Part shown: positions 1 through 62,048 of the stretch, one piece after another
Layout of the letters: every line of letters begins with the position of its first letter
Position numbering within the stretch: the stretch's first letter is position 1
Assembly (NCBI RefSeq): GCF_051014685.1
Contig: NC_135061.1
Location: 1,488,001-1,552,000, forward strand
From: Ptiloglossa arizonensis
Taxonomy: Eukaryota; Arthropoda; Insecta; Hymenoptera; Colletidae
Length of the DNA stretch: 64,000 nt
Direction of reading: 5' to 3'
Translations under genes and position numbers: made by a program
Notes under the pieces: generated by a model
Database searches by the model: none
What the model was told of the DNA's origin: nothing
What the model saw: only the letters and a program-made list of their open reading frames with translations

Positions 1-2690
1 GTGTTTATCGAACGCAGAATACTACTCGAAAGCCATGTTTGTCCAAATAATTAGGACGATTCGTTCCAAAAATATTTAACTGGCTCGTGTAAGAAACAGT
101 TTGTCGTGAAATGTTATCTGGATTTGACACGGTGACCTTTGGTAAAAAGTCACGTGTAGAAGAATGATTAGGAGAATGCGTGGATAAAAGTTTGATCAAA
201 CAATTTAGGGGATTTCTGCAACTGCACGAAAATGTCGTATCGCGAAAGACACGAATTTTGAAAAGTCAGGCGTACGAAATTGGATTTTTCAGCGTGTCAC
301 TCCTCGTCGTGGCGAAAAACGTTACAGCGGATAGACACGTATATTCAAAAATAGACCAAGACTACATTTTTCGTGCATTCGAGTCGTACGATTCTAATTC
401 GCGTGAGTAAAAGAGTCTTGGACGAAACCCTTAACACCGTGTTATTTATACTTCGACCTTTTTCAAAAGTATTATCAAATGATTCGTCTACTTTCGTCGT
501 TGATTACGAATCAAGCGTGGATACAAATTAAATATATGAAATATGTATCCTAGAAGCAAACATCTGCTAACGCGAAACAATTTTACAATAGATGAGGCAC
601 GTATGTCGATGAACAACCAAACTTGTATAAAATATTAATTATTGGAGAATAAAATAGAATATACTTTACTACTTTCGAGAGTTTTCAGTATTTATATTTC
701 TCACTTCCCTAATATCCGTTTATCGTTTATTCGATACAATTGGTACCATCGATAAAATGATACTCCTCGTCGTACAATTCGAACGTAAATTCGTTACAAA
801 ATATTCGAAGGTAGCGTACGATTTTGAATCGCGATCGATCGAGCCTGGGATCGAAACCATTACGAATATCTAGAAACGTCACGTATCCGTGTCATTTTGT
901 AAATAACGCGCCGAGCAGCGTTTTAACGTTTGACGTTTACTGCATTTGCAACAATGCACGGGAAACGCAGTGCGTGCATCTTTCACCGCGGAGCGAGGCG
1001 ATCGAATATGACGAATTGCTGCTGGTCAACGATCGGGAGAATCGTCGATAGATGCGGTTCACTTTTACAATTCTCGGTGGGACGTATCTCAAAAACATAC
1101 CTCTGAAAGATTTTCTTGCATTCCGAGTCAAAGGTCACACACGCTCCGGTGCATGCGAAGGGAAAGAACACCGAAATCAGCAATGCCATATCAAACGCGC
1201 ATTCCGACCCAAGGTATGTAAAATCCTTTATCCACGACTACGGATCTTCTTCAGCCTGACAAAGTGGAAACCTTATGCGCAGAATTTTAATCGCATAAAA
1301 CTTTCGCAACGTTACGTAACATTATACAAATAAGCCAAGTTCAAGCGGATTCTCCATTTAAGTAGAATCTCGTTAATATTTCAACGAGTGCGAATCGACG
1401 ATGTTGATACGTTGTTTTGAATAAATATAGGATCGATGGACAATTTTGGGTCGATTTTGCAAAGTCCATTTACAAAAAATTATCATCCACTCGTCTTTCT
1501 CCCGTCGTTTCGAATTTTTACAACTTGTTTTTCATCTAAATCGAGAATTTCATCCGATTCTAAATTAGTTTTGAACCTTCGATTACTTTCTTCGTTGCTT
1601 ACGTTGAAACTTTGTGCTCTTATCGAGATTTGAAGCGGTCGAAGCGAAATTTTTGAAGCAGCATGCAAAATAGAGGGATCCACCATCGAGGGGGAGAATA
1701 TGTACGTTCGCAGTGAAGTTTCATAAAATTCATTAATTATGCAGAGTGTAACTAATACAAGGGGTCAAAATTCACGAATAAATTCTAGTCGCGAATACAG
1801 GTCGTGTGGACGTGGGTTTGAAAATTCTTTTTCTCGAAGGTGTAGATACGTTTTTCAACGTTCGTCAAGTTTAGAATTAGAAATACTGCTATTTGTTTCT
1901 GTCAGAAATGAACAGTAATAATACTTGGGATTATTAAATTACAGGTAACAGATTCTATTCCAAAGCAGCAAATTTTACCAAATGATTGAAAACATGTGTA
2001 AATTGCAGACTAGAATTTTTATGAGTGCATCTTATACGATTTACTACGTTCAGCAGAATATTTGTGGATAATTAATTATACAGTTTCATCGACCACACAT
2101 CAGTACAGGTAACTAGTATTGTCGACAAAAAGGGATAAATTTTCTCTAAATCTCCAATTACAATATCGGTCCACATAAGGCACATAATATTTATTTTCGG
2201 AAAAATCGTATTTCAATCTTGTATATCGTAAAAGAAAGACAAGTAGAACGATTATATCACCCATCGTACCAAATACAAAAATACAAAATACAAGAAAGCA
2301 AAATTTTCCCAAAACACCGCCACACTCGCCTCTTCCTTGCAACCGATACCACCGTTCCCGTGGTTGTCAAAACGGATCGAAAGTTTCGCTAGTTTCGTTT
2401 TAAGAGAGTCTCGCGCGTATCGGTGATTATTTAACACCACCGTGGCGTTTCTAATAACAAAGCCGTAGCGCAAAACCAAACGGTCGCGGGGCTTGGAAAA
2501 ACATCGTCGCCCAATAAATCCGCTCGCCCACGCTCCCGGCGTGGCGGTGTACATATTCCGCGTAGATAGGTACGATAAGATCGTAGCAGCTTCGCGAGAC
2601 GTTTCGAAAAATAAATGACGGGGAAAAATATTCCCGGCGATATAGGAACCGATCAAATTCCTTCAGGAAATTGCCTGTGATATTACGATG
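1..2690. other. Non-repetitive AT-leaning DNA, no gene seen
   Basis: No frame here looks coding. The longest open frame (about 134 codons, minus strand, 2252-2656) has no recognisable domain and overlaps other frames of similar length. I see no tRNA-like cloverleaf, no tandem array and no transposon end. Intergenic or intronic DNA is the simplest reading. Confidence 0.6.
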
Positions 2691-14377: not shown

Positions 14378-15345
14378 TAGGGTGTACCGATCATCGCCGG
14401 TCGATTTGAATTTCCCGCTGTTTTTGAACCGTTAAACCGATTAATCCGAAAGTAGACGTATTTATTCGTTGGGAATAAAGAGAAAGTATAGGTAAAGAAA
14501 TATATGACGTATTTAACTCTTATTGATTGTGTATAGAAATAAAGTATTGCTCGTTCGCTATTCTCACTCTGGTTTACAGTCTACTAGAGAGTGTCCCGAT
14601 CATCGCCGGTCGATTTGAATTTCCCGCTGTTTTTGAACCGTTAAACCGATTAATCCGAAAGTAGACGTATTTATTCGTTGGAAATAAAGAGAAAGTGTAG
14701 GTAAAGAAATATATGACGCGGTTAAACTCTTATTGATTGTGTATAGAAATAAAGTATTGTTCGTTCGCGAGAAGAAGGCTGAGTGTTTATATTCTCACTC
14801 TGGTTTACAGTCTATTAAAGAGTGTCCCGATCATCGCCGGTCGATTTGAATTTCCCGCTGTTTCTGAACCGTTAAACCGATTGATATGAAAGCAAACGTA
14901 TTTATTCGTTGGAAATAAAGAGAAAGTATAGGTAAAGAAATATATGACGCGATTAAACTCTTATTGATTGTTTATAGAAATAATGTATTGTTCGTTCGCG
15001 AAAAGAAGGCAAACGAGAGTTTATATCCCCACTCTGGTTTACTGTATATTACAGAATGTCCCGATCATCGCCGGTCGATTTGAATTTCGCGCTATATTTA
15101 AACCGTCGAACCGATTAACCTGAAACTCGATATATTTGTTCGTTCGAAATAAAGAGAAAGTATACGTAAACGAAGATATAACGCGATCAAATTCTTATTG
15201 GTGATATACACGAATAAAATATTCCTCGTCCGCGAGAAGAAGGCTAACGAGTGTTTACATCCCCACTCTGGTTTACAGTCTATTACAGGATGTCCCAATC
15301 ATCACCGGTCGATTTGAAATTCCCACTGTTTCTAAAACGTCAAAC
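14378..15345. repeat. 234-bp tandem array headed by a transposon end (locus 1)
   Basis: Units start at 14378 (209 bp, shortened), 14587 (231 bp), 14818 (234 bp) and 15052 (234 bp), followed by a truncated unit from 15286. The first about 100 bp of each unit is the left end of the CAGGGTGTCCC transposon, and each junction has TA or a close variant just before it. The rest of the unit is not found in the 384-bp element. A 66-codon minus-strand frame in the fourth unit starts at TTG and is broken in other units. Confidence 0.9.
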
Positions 15346-18049
15346 CTATCGATAAAGTAATTAAAAATACAGAGAATATAAGGAAATATTGTAATTTTGA
15401 AACTTTAGTCGAACGATATTAACCGGAAACGAATCTTTCCTTTTCTGAGAGTAAATGTTTCCTGTTTTGTTGAAAAATATAATAAAATTTAAAAGCTCTA
15501 CATCAAAGTTACAGGAGAAACGCACGTGTTATTGTTATTTTTCCAAGTAGAGGATTGTATATCTTTTGAAACGACTGCCGAGGCTCCCACTGCTCTCCTA
15601 CAGAGTGACATTAAACACTTGAACATACAACACGAAGATCGGACAAGGGATGCTAGAGAAATAGTGCGTTGACGCGAGAACAGATGTTCCATTCTCCTAT
15701 TCCTAAATCGATTGTTTTTCTAACAAAATGCTCGGTTTCCGGACGAAGGATATTTTTCTGTTTAATTACGTTGACAACTGTATACGTACGAATATACCAT
15801 TTAACGACAACCATTGAAGCATCATTTCTTTTTTAAATTATTTATTCGATCATTGTTTCAACGATAGATTATCATACATAATTTCAATTATATTTTTAAA
15901 AATTTGAAATTACACAGATTTGTAACGTATTGATCGGTAAAACAACTCCCTGTATAATATGCGTTCAATAATAATTATAGAACGAAATTAAAATATTTCT
16001 TTGTTATCAAGTTGGACAAACTACTGCACAAATAGTTCCTTGAAATGATTCAAGTGTTCGAAAATATAATTAAAGTAAATGTAATTAGCAAATTAAGAAG
16101 TAACTTACCGACAATCCCGTTATAACTACGTTTAATATTATTAATTAATTATAATCTAACACAACTCGTATAACGATATTAAGTAATTAATCGTGAGCAA
16201 GTAATAAAATTTAATTATTAAACGAACACTCTGGCCTTTGTCACCGGCCAGTGTGACACGTAGGTAGATACGTATGTTCGTGCAGTTAACTGGCACTAAA
16301 CTTTGCTTACGTATGCTTACGAACCTATAGCAATTTTCGTTTATACGAAATTAGAGTACGAAATTCGAGTTGACTCGATCGTTAACGAATATTATCGTCC
16401 GAATGTAAAAAAAGAGGATACAAAGTTTCGATGCAGTGTATCGAATTGATAACACGATACATACCATGGACAGCAATAATAATTTTAATATCGAATAGGA
16501 TGTAGAAGCAAACAGTCGCTATCGACAGCGTAGAGAATCTAGAAATTAGATAAACAGACAAACAGGATTATCGTGGGTGTTCATACCCTGGATTGAACTC
16601 GGAAAAGCGGATTTGTTGAGACACTAATTCGACCCCTGTCCCACCTTACAAGACACGTTCAACTAATTAATAACGATAAGTACGAATGCGTCTACACCGC
16701 AGAGGATAAACTTGCGGCCCGGCAGATTACCATAGGGTAAGTACTAAGTACTTCGGTCGGATTTAGCTGGTAATGCGGAGATATGTGTTACACTTTGACT
16801 CATTCCCTTTTGTAAAACCCTTCCCTTAAAAGATTGCGGCCGCTGTCCACGGTAAATAAATTTCAGAAGATTTAAATGTTCCTTGTCAAATATTCGCATT
16901 TATTATATCTGCATACTTTCGCGACAAAGAACGATATTTACGAATATATATTTTGCATTGCGCAACATGAACAACATTGTTAAATTTGGTACGTATTTTA
17001 ATTCCGTTATTCAATATCGCTATCGTAAAGTGTTTCTTATTATAATTATCAGAATAATTACATACTCCACTCTCCTCGCATACACTTGACGCTTTATCGA
17101 GAGTCTACGCCAATGCACATTACCCACGAATTTGTTCTCACTCGTCATCACCCAGTCTTTGTCACCGTCTTCGACCAATAACGATTCTCGCTCGCGATCG
17201 TACGAGCAACAACGGATTGAGAAAATAAACACGCGATGCCTTCTTTCCGTGAGCGTGTAACGCACCAGTACGTTCTCCCGCCAAGTTGCATTCTACGATG
17301 CAACTCGACTCGTCTACCTCGGCCCACTCCATCGACTTGCAATTCGGCTAATCTTTGTAGCAACTCTAGCTCACCGTACTGTTATGCAGGAGGGAAGGGT
17401 TGAAGGAACACTTGTGTAGAATTCAACGATCCCTTGGCACTTTACCGAGGTTTTATTAAAATAGACCGATTGACAAGAATTTTGCGGACGTACTTAGCAC
17501 TTATTGATATCTTAGAGAAGAGTGGCCCTTGGGGTCTTCGACGGGTCTTTATACGGTTCGGTGACAAAGAAGGAGTTCGATCCCAGCCTGCGGTTCCCAC
17601 GGGGAGTCACGTAGGCTGGTCGAAGAAATGTTTCGGCTGACTTAGGTTATCTGACTTCTGTGAATTGGCTCGCATGGGAACAGAGATTAATCCTAAAGAT
17701 GCAACGCGGTAGGTATCGTATCGTGATTACGGTTTCGGTATAACGGTACGATCAACGCCGATATTTACCAACGTAGATCCGAGTACGTATTCGTGGAATC
17801 CCCGACCGCTCGTCGAAACAAACTACACGCGTGGAATCGAATCGTAATGCCTCGGCGGAATATCGCGAGACTCTTTTCCCTGTCGGGCCGGTCTACATTC
17901 ATCCGGTGAATGAATGGGAGAACTACGGTCGACACGGTGCGTCGAGTACACCGACAAGAGTTACAACCGGGCTCGAAACAATTCCAACGACTTTTGATGG
18001 TGTTGGATATTAAATTTCGTTTGCGTCTCCCAGTTTTATTGGATTACGG
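15346..18049. other. Non-repetitive DNA, no gene seen
   Basis: Mostly AT-rich. A short hairpin-forming site (CTGGCC...GGCCAG) lies near 16236-16256 and a 15-bp near-palindrome AAGTACTAAGTACTT at 16739-16753. The part 16560-16830 is unique, of balanced composition, and could be conserved non-coding DNA. The T-arm-like GTTCGATCCC at 17576 lacks tRNA pairing. No gene is supported. Confidence 0.5.
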
Positions 18050-21482: not shown

Positions 21483-22220
21483 CTTTGAAACGTGTTGAAA
21501 TATTTGATGAACGAATTTAAAGATTCGTCACCCGTTTGCAAAGTCTCGAAGCGATCGCCGCGGTCCCAACGTGAACGTAACGTACACCGTTCGGGCATCG
21601 CGAAATTAATTTCGTAGTAAGTAAAGACACACGCGCGTCGCGTTCCAACGAAACGGGAGACCGTGGCCGCGGTTTATCCATCGGCGGTGCTCATGACGTT
21701 ATCGATCAGTGTAGCCAACGTTAATGCCGTAAAAGGACGTCGTTGGTAGTCCGGCGGCCACCGAACGAGATTTATCTCCCGTTGGATTTTTCGCGCAGCC
21801 GTGTGAATCGGTGACTCGGTAGATTGCGAAAACGTAGGGAGCGGGGCGGATGGGGGGCCGGTAGCAGGGGGAAGTACGGATTCCAATGATGAAGTAACAA
21901 GTAAATACAGGCGGGTTCGTTTATTGACGAGGGACTCGATTGCGCAGCTATTACACACTGGCGCGCTCCACGCACACGCTCGACGAACCGCGGAGCATAG
22001 AAAGACAGGTGAAACTGTGCACGCCCGGTGTACACACAAACGCGAACGATCGAATGATCTAGCGGTAGCGCCAGCGCGGGTCAAGTCGCGACGAACGAAT
22101 GGCAAACCCTTCTTATTCAAACGGCCGTCGGTGCGAAACTCGTCGCTCCCGTATCGATCTCTCAACCTATGTACAAACCGATATCGTTTCTTGCACCACC
22201 GAGTTTCGGTAGATGAAAAA
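21483..22220. other. GC-richer unique DNA with long but unsupported frames
   Basis: A 163-codon minus-strand frame (21674-22165) and a 180-codon plus-strand frame (21924-22466) overlap here. Both are Arg/Ser/Pro-rich and domainless, and the plus frame runs through the ribozyme-like structure at 22351. I treat them as chance frames in CpG-rich DNA, possibly in a promoter or untranslated region. Confidence 0.4.
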
Positions 22221-22253
22221 ATGTACAGGTTGTGGCGGCACTACCCACGCTTG

Positions 22254-22287
22254 CCACCAGAGGGAAACTCACCACCAACCGTTTCCC
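22254..22287 (+). promoter_or_regulatory. CTCF-like core next to a 7-bp hairpin
   Basis: CCACCAGAGGG at 22254-22264 fits the core of the CTCF consensus (CCASYAGRKGG). Overlapping it, GGGAAAC (22262-22268) pairs perfectly with GTTTCCC (22281-22287). Function is uncertain; a short motif match can be chance. Confidence 0.25.
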
Positions 22288-22350
22288 GCAAGTTCCCGTA
22301 CCTGCTCCAATCGCTATATATACAACCTCTTACCGATCTTCCAATGTCCC

Positions 22351-22419
22351 GGCGTATAAGGCAGGGCCTGCTAGGATGCCTTACTGACGAGTCCACTAGC
22401 AGGCCCGAGATGAAACGCT
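22351..22419 (+). ncRNA. Hammerhead ribozyme-like RNA (type III order)
   Basis: A hammerhead is a small self-cleaving RNA. The expected parts appear in type III order. Stem III 3' strand and U16.1 lie at 22351-22355, H17 is A22356 (GUA triplet, cleavage predicted after it), and stem I is 7 perfect pairs (22357-22363 with 22377-22383). The core CUGACGA is 22384-22390, stem II follows, GAAA is 22412-22415, and the stem III 5' strand (A22415-U22419) pairs back as A-U, C-G, G-C, C-G, U-G. Loop I bases 22364-22374 are perfectly complementary to 22396-22406 in the stem II region (11 bases), like the loop-loop contacts of natural hammerheads but longer. Weak points: stem II is only GUC with GAU, or GUCC with a 6-base bulge, and pair 10.1-11.1 is G-U instead of the usual G-C. 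The competing 11-bp hairpin could also be the main fold. Activity, transcription and host element are unknown. Confidence 0.5.
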
Positions 22420-22420
22420 T

Positions 22421-25400
22421 CTCCCTTTTCCTATTTCCGTTCTTTCCTTCCTCTCACATACTTTAATTTAGCGCCGCCAAAAGGTATCACCAAACAGACT
22501 CCTACCGGAATTTAGAAATCGTTGCTGGGTAAGTAAAAACCTTCGTTTCTGAAAATCGGAAGCAGATTTTCCCGCGACTCGTTAACCGTTTGATGCGCGA
22601 CGCTTAATCGTCCATAGTTTAAACATTGTACCTCTTTGTAGAAAATTGAATATTTTACTTTTGGAGAGGCTCTGGAAATATCCTCCGCGTCTCGATAGTT
22701 ATTGTGTTAATCGATCGCTAAGGGGATGCAAGTTGTACTAGGTTGATAAGTTCTGTCGTAAAGAAATACTAATACAAATAATACGAATTAATCGACAGAT
22801 CTACGTGAAACTTTGCACACGTTCATGGTACAATGGTACCATTTTTGTAAAAATAAAACGACGAAGCTGATAGTTCGATCGAATTATCAGATCGAAAACG
22901 AAACAATCTCGCCTCAAGCCGGATATTCTCGTTGCTCGGTACAAAGAATCTTTGAGAAAGAAAATACTAGATTCTTTGATAAGTTTTCTCGTTTTTCCAT
23001 TGTAAAAAAATACTATGAATTTCGAACGACTGTAAATATTCGAACGAGTTTCGATCTGCATGAAACTTCGCGCATGTTCATGTAACGGTAGTATCATCTT
23101 TAGAGAAATACAAACGACGAATCTAATAGCTCGATTTCTTAACGAACGACGAAACTTATCGAGTAGTTTATTATTTACGGGTTCCCTCGCTCCGTTGGGG
23201 AAAAAATACCGCGCGGTGGTATATACAAGGCACCGAGGGAAACTTTGATTCCGCTTTACACGGAATTACGGTTATCCTCGTGGCCGGTGCAGCGGATTGC
23301 ATTTCGCGAATTCATTCCGACATCAATACCGGGCGGTGCATCCTGAAAAAGCTTCGCGCCAGAAATTCCCCGGAGTCATATACTAGATGGGTTTCTGATC
23401 AATCCAACACGGACGGGTCAGGCCCGTGTTCGGTTTAAAGCGAAGTTTCCTTATTCAAGTTGCAACGTCGGTCGTACGGGGACGAGGCGTAATTCATAGG
23501 TCATCAAATTGAATCAGCCATCGACGGATTGCGCCTGTATGAAAATTTATCGATGCGGTCGCGGTGCACGGGACGGTTCGCAACTACGAATCACCGATAC
23601 GGCGTCGATTCGGGTACTCGGCGGCCCGGTGCAGCGTCGGGGCGCACGGTGCGCCGTGTTTCATCGGACCGGATCGTCAATAGAACGGAATCACGGTATG
23701 TTAAACAAAAAGAAAACCTCTGTAAAAAATTCAGCGCCTATGTAGTGGCTAAACACACGCGGCTCGGTTGAATACGGTGTTTCTGGTGCGTTTTTCAGGG
23801 ACAAAAAGCTCCCTTTCAAATGCCCACGAAAATATGCGAGTTTCGCGCGGAAAAGTTTTTTTGTTTACGCGAAACTGTTTGAATAATTTATTTCCGAATG
23901 GTCGTTCCCCCATTTGGAAGCGTTTACGATGCAGTTTTCACCGGATTTCATTTCCGCTCCTATTCATCTTCCCCGTATTGATAGATTTATACGTCTCTGA
24001 TTTACACGTCTCTATTCACGTTTCAGAATTACGTTTCAGAATTACGTTTCAGAATTTTAAACCCATGGAAAATTAGCCGGCCGTGCGATGCTCGCGAAAG
24101 AGAACGAAAGGCTGGACGTTTCAAAGAGATTCGATCTTTTAATTTGAAAATTTACGTACAGAGATAAATACCTACCGTACGCGGAATGCAGCGCGGGAAG
24201 CGTCGCGATTGAATATTTTCGAAAATATCGTCGATATCGAAACATACCACGGAACGAAGATAAAGGGATATCGTTTCTGGATTAATTTGATTTTCACGCA
24301 GGGGAAAACTCTCGAGAAGATATCGAGTACTTTTCTTTTAAATGAAATTTACATTTTGCAGTACGCGTCTAAATTGAAAAATATATAGTTTCGTTTCGAG
24401 AAATTCGGCTACTTTCAATTATTATTCTAAAATATAACGTGTAGGTTCACGTTCTTTAAATTGGTATCCATTTATCGTATCCTTCTTTCTTTTAGTAACT
24501 TTTGTTTTAAATTCGACTAAAGCTGTTGTTATCGTTATCAAAATGTAACGTGGTTTCAATAAACGCGAGATAGAAGCGCGTAAATTTGGAAAATATTTAA
24601 TACGTTGGTTATTTCCGGAACGGGATCGAAGTCGACGATAACAGCACCGAGTCGCGTTGCTATCGATAAATCGAGGGAAACGTATTAGAAAAGAACCGGT
24701 CGTAAATATCTACGAAACGCGTCTGACTTTTGAGACCGCGGGGATTCGCGAAAATCGTGGAGCAGTTGAAATTCGTATCGATGAAAAGCGATGATCCTGT
24801 CGATTGAAATGGCAAATATTTTTATCGTTCGTGCATTCGAGTCTCGTTCGCGTTGAAAATCCTATTTCAACGAGCAACCTGGGCAGACAACCAGTCCAAC
24901 TTCCGAGTTCGCGTTAATTTTCGATCGTTCTATTACAATATCGTTGTCACACTCAGAATTATCGAATGATCTTCCATTGTCACCGTAAGAGAATACGGTT
25001 CCACGTGTCGAAGAGAACGAACGCTTCGTGGAAATTCAATCCTCCCGTTTCGTCCGTTTTCGCTTTAAAGCGATATTTACAGTCAGAGATCGCAAACACG
25101 GAGACGAATCGATGTCATAACGAAACGAAACAATTCTCTTTGATATTATTATCGAATCATTTCCGGACACTCGACAGATTTCGACATTCTTTCTCGATAA
25201 CGACGGATTGTTGCGCGATGAGTGCTATTCGAGACGATGCTTAAAATACTAATTTAAAAGATAACGTTAGAGAAGGAAGACAATTCAAGGAAGTTTAGAA
25301 TGGAATCTAATAATCGAATTTTTCCTTTTTTCGAAAATTGAAACACGTTTTCCTAGAAACCATGTTCTTCGACACGGTGTACTCGATTAGGAATTAACGA

Positions 25401-27388: not shown

Positions 27389-27960
27389 CGGAGTGTCCCG
27401 ATCATCACCGGTCGATTTGAATTTCGCGCTCTTCTTAAACTGTCAAACTAATTAACTTTTAACTCGACACATTTGTTCGTTCGAAATACAGAGAAAGTAT
27501 ACGTAAACGAACATATAACGCGATCAAATTCTTATTGGTGATGTACACGAATAAAATATTCCTCGTCCGCGAGAAGAAGGCTAACGAGTGTTTAAATCCC
27601 CACTCTGGTTTAGAGTTTACTAGAGGGTGTCCCAATCATCACCGGTCGATTTGAATTTCGCGCTATATTTAAACCGTCGAACCGATTAACCTGAAACTCG
27701 ATATATTTGTTCGTTCGAAATAAAGAGAAAGTATACGTAAACGAACATATAACGCGATCATAGTCTTATTGGTCGTGTACACGAATAAAATATTGTTCGT
27801 TCGCGAAAAGAAGGCTAACGAGTGTTTACATCCCCATTCTGGTTTAGAGTTTACTAGAGGGTGTCCCAATCATCACCGGTCGATTTGAATTTCGCGCTAT
27901 ATTTAAACCGTCGAACCGATTAACCTAAAACTCGACGTATGTCATCTGGAGGATGTACGA
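27389..27960. repeat. 234-bp tandem units plus transposon left-end fragment (locus 3)
   Basis: Two full units, 27389-27622 and 27623-27856 (234 bp each), follow TA or a TA-containing junction. A third start at 27857 continues as the 384-type element (GACGTATGTCATCTGGA) and fades out near 27960. Unit length is exactly that of loci 1 and 2. The 66-codon minus-strand frame at 27669-27869 starts at TTG and is not called. Confidence 0.9.
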
Positions 27961-45750: not shown

Positions 45751-45798
45751 TTAGGTTGTTCGACAAGTCATTTCGTTTTTTCTGGTGAAAACGAAACA

Positions 45799-45960
45799 CG
45801 ATTTTTCTATCGTGTATAAATATTTTATACATGATTTTTCTATCGTGTATAAATATTTTATACATGATTTTTCTATCGTGTATAAATATTTTATACATGA
45901 TTTTTCTATCGTGTATAAATATTTTATACATGATTTTTCTATCGTGTATAAATATTTTAT
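45799..45960. repeat. 33-bp tandem repeat, about five copies
   Basis: The unit contains GATTTTTCTATCGTGTATAA then ATATTTTATACAT. Copies are almost identical. As 33 is divisible by three, frames stay open on both strands; these are not genes. Confidence 0.92.
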
Positions 45961-51889: not shown

Positions 51890-52612
51890 AATATTTTCAA
51901 TTATTAATTTTCAATTATCCTTATTCAACAAATTTTTCATCCAAAAGTTGTCAACTCGAGTATTTTATTTCGGTAGATTAATCGAGTAATAAAATTCAAA
52001 GCAATAGTTCGAGAATAAATAATGCTCTTATACACATCCAATGCCATTCAATATTTTAACACGTTCAGCTAGTAGATAATAAATTATTTTAAAGAAAAAT
52101 ATCTTCGCTAGATTCCAGGTATAACAGCAAATTATTTTCAATTATTAATGTTCAATTATCCTTATTCAACAAATTTTTCATCCAAAAGTTGTCAACTCGA
52201 GTATTTTATTTCGGTAGATTAATCGAGTAATAAAATTCAAAGCAATAGTTCGAGAATAAATAATGCTCTTATACACATCCAATGCCATTCAATATTTTAA
52301 CACGTTCAGCTAGTAGATAATAAATTATTTTAAAGAAAAATATCTTCGCTAGATTCCAGGTATAACAGCAAATTATTTTCAATTATTAATGTTCAATTAT
52401 CCTTATTCAACAAATTTTTCATCCAAAAGTTGTCAACTCGAGTATTTTATTTCGGTAGATTAATCGAGTAATAAAATTCAAAGCAATAGTTCGAGAATAA
52501 ATAATGCTCTTATACACATCCAATGCCATTCAATATTTTAACACGTTCAGCTAGTAGATAATAAATTATTTTAAAGATAAATATCTTCGCTAGATTCCAG
52601 GTATAACAGCAT
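51890..52612. repeat. 241-bp tandem repeat, three near-identical copies
   Basis: TTATTCAACAAATTTTTCAT occurs at 51921, 52162 and 52403, exactly 241 bp apart. By eye the copies differ at only a few bases (for example ATTAATTTTC versus ATTAATGTTC, and AAAGAAAAAT versus AAAGATAAAT). It is the youngest-looking array in the window. Confidence 0.95.
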
Positions 52613-57150: not shown

Positions 57151-57193
57151 AAGATAATTCTCCATTTCGGAGAACACCAGGGAAATCAATATC

Positions 57194-58008
57194 GATAAAT
57201 AAACTCGTGCAATTGCAAGAATAGACTTCACGTGAGTTCAAGGTACAAGAATGACAAGGAAAACATTTGGAATAAAATTTGTAAGAATTCGAAGGGAACC
57301 TTCTTATTCTTGTTTCAAATACTGCAGCATGGAAACGATCGTTACATTTGTAAATAATTATTCAAGAAACGAGGTCCTCTTCTTCTGAACACCACCGCGG
57401 AGACTGCAATTTAAATTCAACTCTTACATCGATGTGCGTAAATTTCATTCTTCCCCTAATTCTCCGGTTAGCTCGTATAAACAATGGTAACGGTAATCTA
57501 TTAGGTTTACACCGATAAATAAAGTCGTGCAATTGCAAGAATAGATTTCACGTGAGTTCAAGGTACAAGAATGACAAGGATAATATTTGGAATTAAATTT
57601 GTAAGAATTCGAAGGGAACCTTCTTATTCTTGTTTCAAATACTGTAGCATGGAAACGATCGTTACATTTGTAAATAATTATTCAAGAAACGAGGTCCTCT
57701 TCTTCTGAACACCACCACCGAGACTGCAATTTAAGTTCAACTCTTACATCGATGTGCGTAAATTTGATTCATCCCCTAATTCTCCGGTTAGCTCGTATAA
57801 ACAATGGTAACGGTAATCTATTAAGTTTACACCGATAAATAAAGTCGTGCAATTGCAAGAATAGATTTCACGTGAGTTCAAGGTACAAGAATGACAAGGA
57901 TAATATTTGGAATTAAATTTGTAAGAATTCGAAGGGAACCTTCTTATTCTTGTTTCAAATACTGCAGCATGGAAACGATCGTTACATTTGTAAATAATTA
58001 TTCACGAG
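57194..58008. repeat. 320-bp tandem repeat, about two and a half copies
   Basis: GATAAATAAA(C/G)TCGTGCAATT lies at 57194, 57514 and 57834, and TTCAAGAAACGAGGTCCTC at 57361 and 57681; period 320 bp. Copies are nearly identical. The third breaks off at about 58003-58008, at the point where the copy at 63782 begins. Confidence 0.93.
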
Positions 58009-61225: not shown

Positions 61226-62048
61226 CACTAAATAATAATAATAACCTCAGAAACTGAAAACGTATACAGTTGTCCTGGTTCTACGTCGAGCCACTGTACC
61301 TAACCCAGAAATAAAGTACAAAGTAAAACACAGTACGCTATAGTAACTTTTTTCAACGATTCGTAGCTCTCACTAGAGATCAGTCATCGAGAGGACACCC
61401 TGTATCTGGAAACCGTCTTTTGAATTAAAGTTCCCGCGTCACGTTTCGACGAACGTTACAATAGTCGAACAACAGAAAGCGGGCTCGGTATCGAACAATC
61501 GTGGACCGTGATTAACTTACATAATGCGAGCAGCGAGCGATTTTTTTTAAAGGCACATCGGAGTGTCTCGAAGTGGAAAGTCGAACGGGAAATCGACGAG
61601 CAGTTTCCTGCCCCTCGTCAACTTTTGTCGCGATCTTATTTGTCCGACAGCTCGTTTATTCTGAAGAACTCGAGAGCTCGGCCTCGAGTCCAATTAAAAA
61701 TCACGGGGTCATTTATTTACGCTTGGAATACAATCGAGCTTGAACAAGGCGGCGGCACGTAGGGTAGGAGGGCGAAGGGTTGTGGCGGGGGTAGGTGTAA
61801 ATAATGGTCAAGCGGCCAGGAAGGTTGAACACTCCGAAAGAGGGTGAACAGCAAAGAGAAATTAAGGCGAAAGCCGGTGGGAGGGTAATGAGTGAAAAAA
61901 AAAAGAGAAAGAATCTCTTCGCGCTAGCGTGAAGAGCGAACAGGGCGTGGGGACTTGTGTTCGACGTAAAAAAATTGCTGACAGACCGAACTGGTTCAAA
62001 CTTTGTCCAACACTCGAGAACGATGGAACTCTAACCCGTTCACCATCG
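61226..62048. other. Unique DNA with one isolated transposon-end phrase
   Basis: GGACACCCTGTA at 61393-61404 is the inverted CAGGGTGTCC end preceded by TA, without the rest of the element, so it may be a remnant or chance. An 84-codon frame (61508-61762) has no domain. From 61740 to 61900 the sequence is purine-rich. Confidence 0.45.

Follow-up and report, generated by a model that had tools for sequence, protein, structure and literature searches.

Sequence architecture of the candidate hammerhead

The question raised by positions 22351-22419 (+ strand) of the 64,000-nucleotide stretch of DNA that was analysed (hereafter, the window) is whether this segment encodes a self-cleaving hammerhead ribozyme of type III, and what the long complementarity between its two loops would mean for such a ribozyme. 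By direct reading of the letters and by means of a grammar script, a complete type III hammerhead core was found there. The script scanned both strands of the window for type III arrangements with a stem I of at least 5 pairs and a stem III of at least 4 pairs, and this was the only site on either strand that matched. The features assigned to the candidate are the following:

22351..22355, + strand: 5' arm of stem III, ending in U16.1; pairs with 22415-22419, with a single G-U pair at the open end
22356..22356, + strand: H17, an A directly 5' of stem I; predicted cleavage 3' of it (GUA site)
22357..22363, + strand: 5' arm of stem I; seven Watson-Crick pairs with 22377-22383
22364..22374, + strand: loop I segment complementary to loop II; 11-nt perfect inverted repeat (repeat finder)
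22377..22383, + strand: 3' arm of stem I; pairs with 22357-22363
22384..22390, + strand: hammerhead core CUGACGA (C3-A9), from the letters, the grammar script and the Rfam alignment
22391..22393, + strand: 5' arm of stem II; three pairs with 22409-22411, the wobble pair first
22396..22406, + strand: loop II segment complementary to loop I (repeat finder and grammar script)
22409..22411, + strand: 3' arm of stem II; pairs with 22391-22393
22412..22415, + strand: GAAA (G12, A13, A14, A15.1), from the letters and the Rfam alignment
22415..22419, + strand: 3' arm of stem III; pairs with 22351-22355

The segment contains the features of the hammerhead class, namely the CUGANGA...GAAA core, the A15.1-U16.1 pair, a UH site and three stems (I, 7 pairs; II, 3 pairs; III, 5 pairs). 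Every element that the first-pass annotation had described was found at its position, and both the reading of the letters and the grammar script confirmed that all conserved core positions are filled, that the 7-bp stem I is perfect and that stem III comprises 5 pairs (G22351-U22419, G22352-C22418, C22353-G22417, G22354-C22416 and U22355-A22415). The weakness of stem II had also been pointed out correctly: its three pairs (G22391-U22411, U22392-A22410 and C22393-G22409) open with a G-U at 10.1-11.1. In hammerheads this pair is highly conserved as G-C, and the candidate is therefore off consensus at this position. The longest complementarity between loop I and loop II is 11 nucleotides and perfect (22364-22374 with 22396-22406), as had been claimed, and it also appears in the list of the repeat finder. 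Loop I is 13 nt long, and the unpaired linkers that flank its complementary segment are 0 and 2 nt.

Expectation by chance

Two null models were used to estimate how often such an arrangement arises by chance. In the first, a first-order Markov sequence modelled on the window (3.86e9 bases, both strands counted), there were 1304 matches to the grammar with a stem I of at least 5 and a stem III of at least 4 pairs, which corresponds to 0.043 per window. A stem I of at least 7 together with a stem III of at least 5 pairs occurred in 67 matches (0.0022 per window), and in 2 matches (6.6e-5 per window) when a stem II of at least 3 pairs was added; a loop complementarity of at least 8 was present in 4 of the 1304. 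The second model had the 52% GC composition of the surrounding 1.1 kb (3.90e9 bases) and produced 548 grammar matches, 31 of which had a stem I of at least 7 and a stem III of at least 5 pairs (0.0010 per window). None was left once a stem II of at least 3 pairs was added, and a complementarity of at least 8 was found in 2. When the two loops of the candidate were shuffled, a complementarity of at least 11 arose in 8 of 500,000 shuffles.

The product of the rate for core plus stems I and III and that for the loop match is about 2-4e-8 per window, or about 1e-4 for a genome assumed to consist of 4,000 windows. The real chance rate is higher than the computed 2-4e-8, because the grammar was written post hoc, with the candidate already seen. 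Altogether, it is very unlikely that the candidate at 22351-22419 is a product of chance. The filled core, the stems and the rates for core plus stems I and III uphold the earlier description of the locus as type III hammerhead-like, and together with the shuffling result they bear out the claim that the joint match is hard to obtain by chance.

Profile searches and viral-contig controls

An Rfam scan of the whole window returned no family at or above its gathering score. The sole match in the window at E≤3 was a sub-threshold hit of Chlorobi-1 RNA at 61911-61979 (21.9 bits versus 50), which is probably due to chance. The covariance-model search that the first-pass annotation had proposed as a check gave a match below threshold only: in the 401 bases around the site, RF00008 (Hammerhead_3) scored 19.0 bits against a gathering score of 48.5 (E 0.19 over all families). 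The alignment spans the whole model (positions 1-54), so that the candidate aligns end to end, yet with a 14-nt insertion in loop I and a longer loop II. The HH9, HH10, type I and type II hammerhead models were not among the matches listed for these 401 bases at E≤10. Because the gathering score was not reached, we left the candidate outside family RF00008, although its core and stem features are those of the class.

As controls, 316 viral-contig loci were used, which yielded 89 grammar matches, 87 of them unique and 70 with a stem II of at least 2 pairs; these are putative ribozymes, type III-like by grammar. The set is biased against forms like the candidate, because the search patterns demanded a stem II opened by G-C and a loop II of limited length. 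Among the 70 matches, found with patterns that favour short loops, the longest loop-loop match was 6, compared with 11 in the candidate, and this agrees with the earlier view that the length of the complementarity is unusual. When Rfam was run on 12 of the 316 loci, each with a type III-grammar match, the gathering score of RF00008 was reached on the site in 1 (L293), a Hammerhead_II match overlapped the site in 2 (L051 and L191), and there was no on-site hammerhead match in 9.

Two of these viral contigs deserve mention in their own right. The L051 stretch (6146 bases) carries a dense ribozyme cluster, with 8 Hammerhead_II matches above gathering within 6 kb on one strand. In L191, a type II hammerhead match (249-312) and a Twister-P5 match (1764-1819) lie within 1.6 kb of each other on the same strand.

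A competing hairpin and the geometry of loop docking

The minimum-energy structure predicted by RNAfold for 22345-22425 combines stem III with a nested 11-bp hairpin formed by the two complementary loop segments (-30.3 kcal/mol; z -2.27, with an equally or more stable fold in 3 of 200 shuffles). When folds were evaluated separately, stems I, II and III together gave -9.6 kcal/mol and the hairpin with stem III -29.1 kcal/mol, a difference of 19.5. For the helices alone, the 3'-terminal 7 bp of the loop I segment contributed -9.0 kcal/mol and all 11 bp -22.3 kcal/mol. In 5' prefixes ending at 22383-22398, an alternative fold was favoured over stem I. The long loop complementarity is thus predicted to make the nested hairpin the ground state, a point that was absent from the first-pass annotation, and in these models the preference for the hairpin represents real evidence against efficient cleavage.

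This finding has to be weighed against the behaviour of the controls. Stem I was kept in the minimum-energy fold of 63 of the 70 controls and was lost in the candidate. It was also lost in 3 of the 4 controls with a loop-loop complementarity of at least 4, with energy gaps of 0.1-7.7 kcal/mol. One of these three is L051, whose site overlaps an Rfam type II match and may be a type II motif; with L051 excluded, stem I was lost in 2 of 3. Since 3 of the 4 loop-matched controls lose stem I as well, its loss in the minimum-energy fold is not decisive. Pseudoknotted hammerheads tend to be penalised by energy models that ignore tertiary contacts, but the gap of the candidate to its minimum (20.7 kcal/mol) is far larger than the gaps among the controls listed (up to 7.7, leaving aside L284, whose energy gap is a meaningless artefact of a 2-nt loop). 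The closest architectural analogue in the control set was a type III-like hammerhead at 2353-2383 (-) of viral contig L225, which has a 6-bp loop I-loop II match, loses stem I in its minimum-energy fold and was not reported by Rfam at gathering.

The dominance of the nested hairpin in the predicted fold leads to the main rival explanation, according to which the stable 11-bp hairpin (22364-22406, 21-nt loop) is either the real feature or a neutral inverted repeat, the hammerhead elements are a chance occurrence or a decayed relic, and the RNA never cleaves. The window contains 9 perfect 11-mer inverted repeats with spacers of 3-60; only the one at 22364-22374/22396-22406 has at least 7 G+C. 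In addition, Perreault et al. 2011 (PMC3088659) state that chance matches to the hammerhead consensus are to be expected in large databases and that weak candidates were inactive. Such a co-occurrence of hairpin and hammerhead elements is, however, expected at the order of only 1e-8 for one window and about 1e-4 for the assumed genome of 4,000 windows, and in a relic that has been decaying for long one would not expect a core without losses or a 7-bp stem I that is still perfect. We regard this explanation as rather unlikely, albeit as the one to be taken most seriously among the rivals.

How much of the complementarity could be used for docking was modelled on ideal A-form RNA. The shorter cross-strand phosphate distance was 10.0 Å at 6 bp, 12.3 Å at 7 bp, 16.3 Å at 8 bp and 28.6 Å at 11 bp. 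With linkers of only 0 and 2 nt to bridge 28.6 Å, all 11 loop-loop pairs together are incompatible with a closed stem I. By the same model, 6-8 pairs can be compatible with stem I if the leftover bases serve as linkers. The match is therefore longer than what appears usable in docking, and its surplus pairs would favour the competing hairpin.

Comparison with known pseudoknotted hammerheads

According to Perreault et al. (PMC3088659), pseudoknots between stems I and II occur in all three hammerhead types and are likely in about 40% of the representatives. Such base pairing between the stem I and stem II regions is also predicted for the candidate, and stem II can be very weak in those hammerheads, often with two pairs and once with one pair. 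The one-pair case is of type II: a bimolecular construct from a metagenome, with a 6-bp pseudoknot and a cleavage rate above 1.2 per min. Shortening of a 6-bp pseudoknot to four pairs led to a loss of about 20-fold, and a U-U mismatch at 10.1-11.1 was reported to support cleavage. The same paper describes a hammerhead in an intron of human C10orf118, conserved across mammals except mouse and rat, that was inactive at 0.5 mM Mg2+ without its 5-bp pseudoknot and whose biological role was 'not clear'. The published pseudoknots (6 bp and 5 bp) are reported to matter for activity; they are shorter than the loop match of the candidate.

The type III order itself occurs in the hammerheads of PMC7936874, in which loops 1 and 2 form a pseudoknot and which are described from HDV-like RNAs of toad and termite and from termite and dipteran genomes. 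The claim that the type III order is unusual in an animal-like genome was therefore too strong. In termite genomes these hammerheads are isolated motifs, and the tested motifs of that study reach 50-60% cleavage completion. The candidate has in common with them the type III order, a Watson-Crick contact between loops I and II (predicted in the candidate) and its occurrence as an isolated genomic motif, as in termites. The toad and termite motifs (PMC7936874) combine a 5-bp first stem I with an internal loop and a capping hairpin (about 20 nt), and they have 6 bp in stem II and 4 nt in the loop contact (GCCR/YGGC), whereas the candidate has a simple 7-bp stem I, a 13-nt loop, a 3-pair stem II and 11 complementary bases. 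The candidate consequently lacks the 5-bp stem I, internal GCCR loop, capping hairpin and 6-bp stem II that define the toad and termite HDV-like type III subgroup. It also differs from the toad motifs, which have atypical cUH sites, by its usual GUA site with GAAAC. In that study, searches with the toad and termite architecture gave none in hymenopterans, and a plant viral satellite hammerhead is mentioned as a type III example whose loop 1-loop 2 pseudoknot is stable, a pairing that the loop match of the candidate resembles. Judged from its sequence, the candidate appears to be of the same sort as the type III motifs of PMC7936874, with a simpler build and a longer match.

Genomic surroundings

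The window has a GC content of about 0.405 and a CpG observed/expected ratio of 1.76, values that are typical of Hymenoptera. In the 250-bp bin that holds the motif (22251-22500), the CpG observed/expected ratio was 0.93, the lowest of the 24 bins between 20 and 26 kb; the other 23 ranged from 1.46 to 2.73. Two features close to the candidate could relate to transcription:

22315..22322, + strand: TATATATA, possible TATA box, ending 29 nt upstream of the start of stem III
22529..22534, + strand: GTAAGT, possible splice donor, ranking fifth among the listed + strand donors (tied with 5494) in a simple matrix

A TTTT at 22426-22429 begins 7 nt downstream of the motif. Together, TATATATA, the TTTT and the donor at 22529 would fit a transcript start just 5' of the motif; each of them is weak, TATATATA as a TATA box because the same 8-mer occurs 6 times in the window.

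With TATATATA and TTTT placed in this way, a transcript might contain hardly anything besides the candidate structure. It could then be a structured RNA other than a ribozyme, such as a 5'-UTR hairpin or a short RNA of the Pol III type. The placement of the two elements and the good splice donor at 22529 are consistent with this explanation, and hymenopteran small RNAs with type 3 promoters (PSE plus TATA), telomerase RNAs included, are described in PMC9841428. However, the explanation leaves the filled hammerhead core unaccounted for and leans on an 8-mer that recurs in the window, and we consider it improbable. Telomerase RNA was set aside, as no run resembling a telomere template was seen by eye in the candidate, and no literature combining a hammerhead ribozyme with a proximal sequence element was found.

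Within the window the candidate occurs once, in DNA where no coding sequence was recognised. A 219-aa open frame runs over the site, but neither this frame nor 19 other ORFs or exon candidates of the window had a Pfam match above cut-off (there was one sub-threshold match, tRNA_SAD, with 15.3 bits versus 24), and coding sequence over the site was rejected. Exon prediction gave nothing convincing for a host gene in the window, and a tRNA search of the window found none. A scan for bacterial promoters and terminators, which is of little relevance to insect DNA, likewise gave nothing. No second copy of 21501-23500 was found within the window, and a mobile-element copy was rejected on this basis.

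The lack of a second copy in the window and of Pfam families above cut-off among these 20 frames also speaks against the locus being what is left of an integrated hammerhead-bearing element (viroid-like, HDV-like or retrozyme). Precedents do exist, since type III hammerheads in which loops 1 and 2 form a pseudoknot are carried by HDV-like agents of termite and toad (PMC7936874) and plant retrozymes bear hammerheads in their LTRs (PMC9695139 and PMC12029980). We nevertheless consider such an origin highly improbable. No homologues were found in phage records, and one exact motif pattern had 0 matches in viral contigs. One motif pattern matched 5 bacterial or archaeal stretches among genome contigs, with no hammerhead in the flanking bases shown (one stretch ends just after the match); we read these matches as chance.

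The window also contains several tandem arrays. Those at 14565-15346 and 27393-27936, 12 kb apart, both have a period of 234 and consensus units that share recognisable stretches, and they probably represent one minisatellite family. The arrays at 51892-52611 (period 241, 99% matches) and 57193-58004 (period 320, 97%) are very homogeneous, suggesting recent expansion, and a 33-bp unit is repeated five times at 45796-45960 (99% matches).

Proposed mode of action and implications

We conclude that the most likely reading of the locus, and one that is probable on the whole, is a type III hammerhead, as defined by its core and stems, that docks via base-paired loops. In such a ribozyme, a 7-bp stem I, a 3-bp stem II and a 5-bp stem III would join the CUGACGA strand to the GAAA strand. 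Stem II is not strong enough to stabilise this arrangement on its own, and it would be the pairing of loop I with loop II that packs stem I parallel to stem II, probably by means of 6-8 of the 11 possible pairs, the other bases serving as linkers. Self-cleavage of the transcript would then take place 3' of A22356 and produce 2',3'-cyclic phosphate and 5'-OH termini. Since the RNA can also use the full 11-nt match for a nested hairpin, in which docking is precluded, the activity is probably partial or dependent on the folding conditions. Whereas the sequence and its complementarity are observed, we infer the docking, the cleavage and any biological role of the candidate. What isolated genomic hammerheads do in animals has, to our knowledge, yet to be settled.

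In the plant viral satellite hammerhead, the subject of work by Song et al., loop pairing reportedly attenuates cleavage. A more specific proposal, which we put forward only as a long shot, is that the locus places, at the 5' end of an insect transcript, a hammerhead that is bistable and attenuates itself, with a docked and active form held by 6-8 bp and an inactive form in which the 11-bp hairpin excludes stem I. Under this proposal, cleavage near the transcript start would remove a short capped leader, and the balance between the two folds would thereby set the output of the transcript.

In the literature searched, the candidate would have no precedent as a pseudoknotted type III hammerhead from a hymenopteran-like genome. 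If active, it would add both a lineage and a loop-loop match of roughly double the 5-6 bp found in the cases of PMC3088659. It thereby raises the question of whether strong pairing between loops I and II speeds a hammerhead or switches it off.
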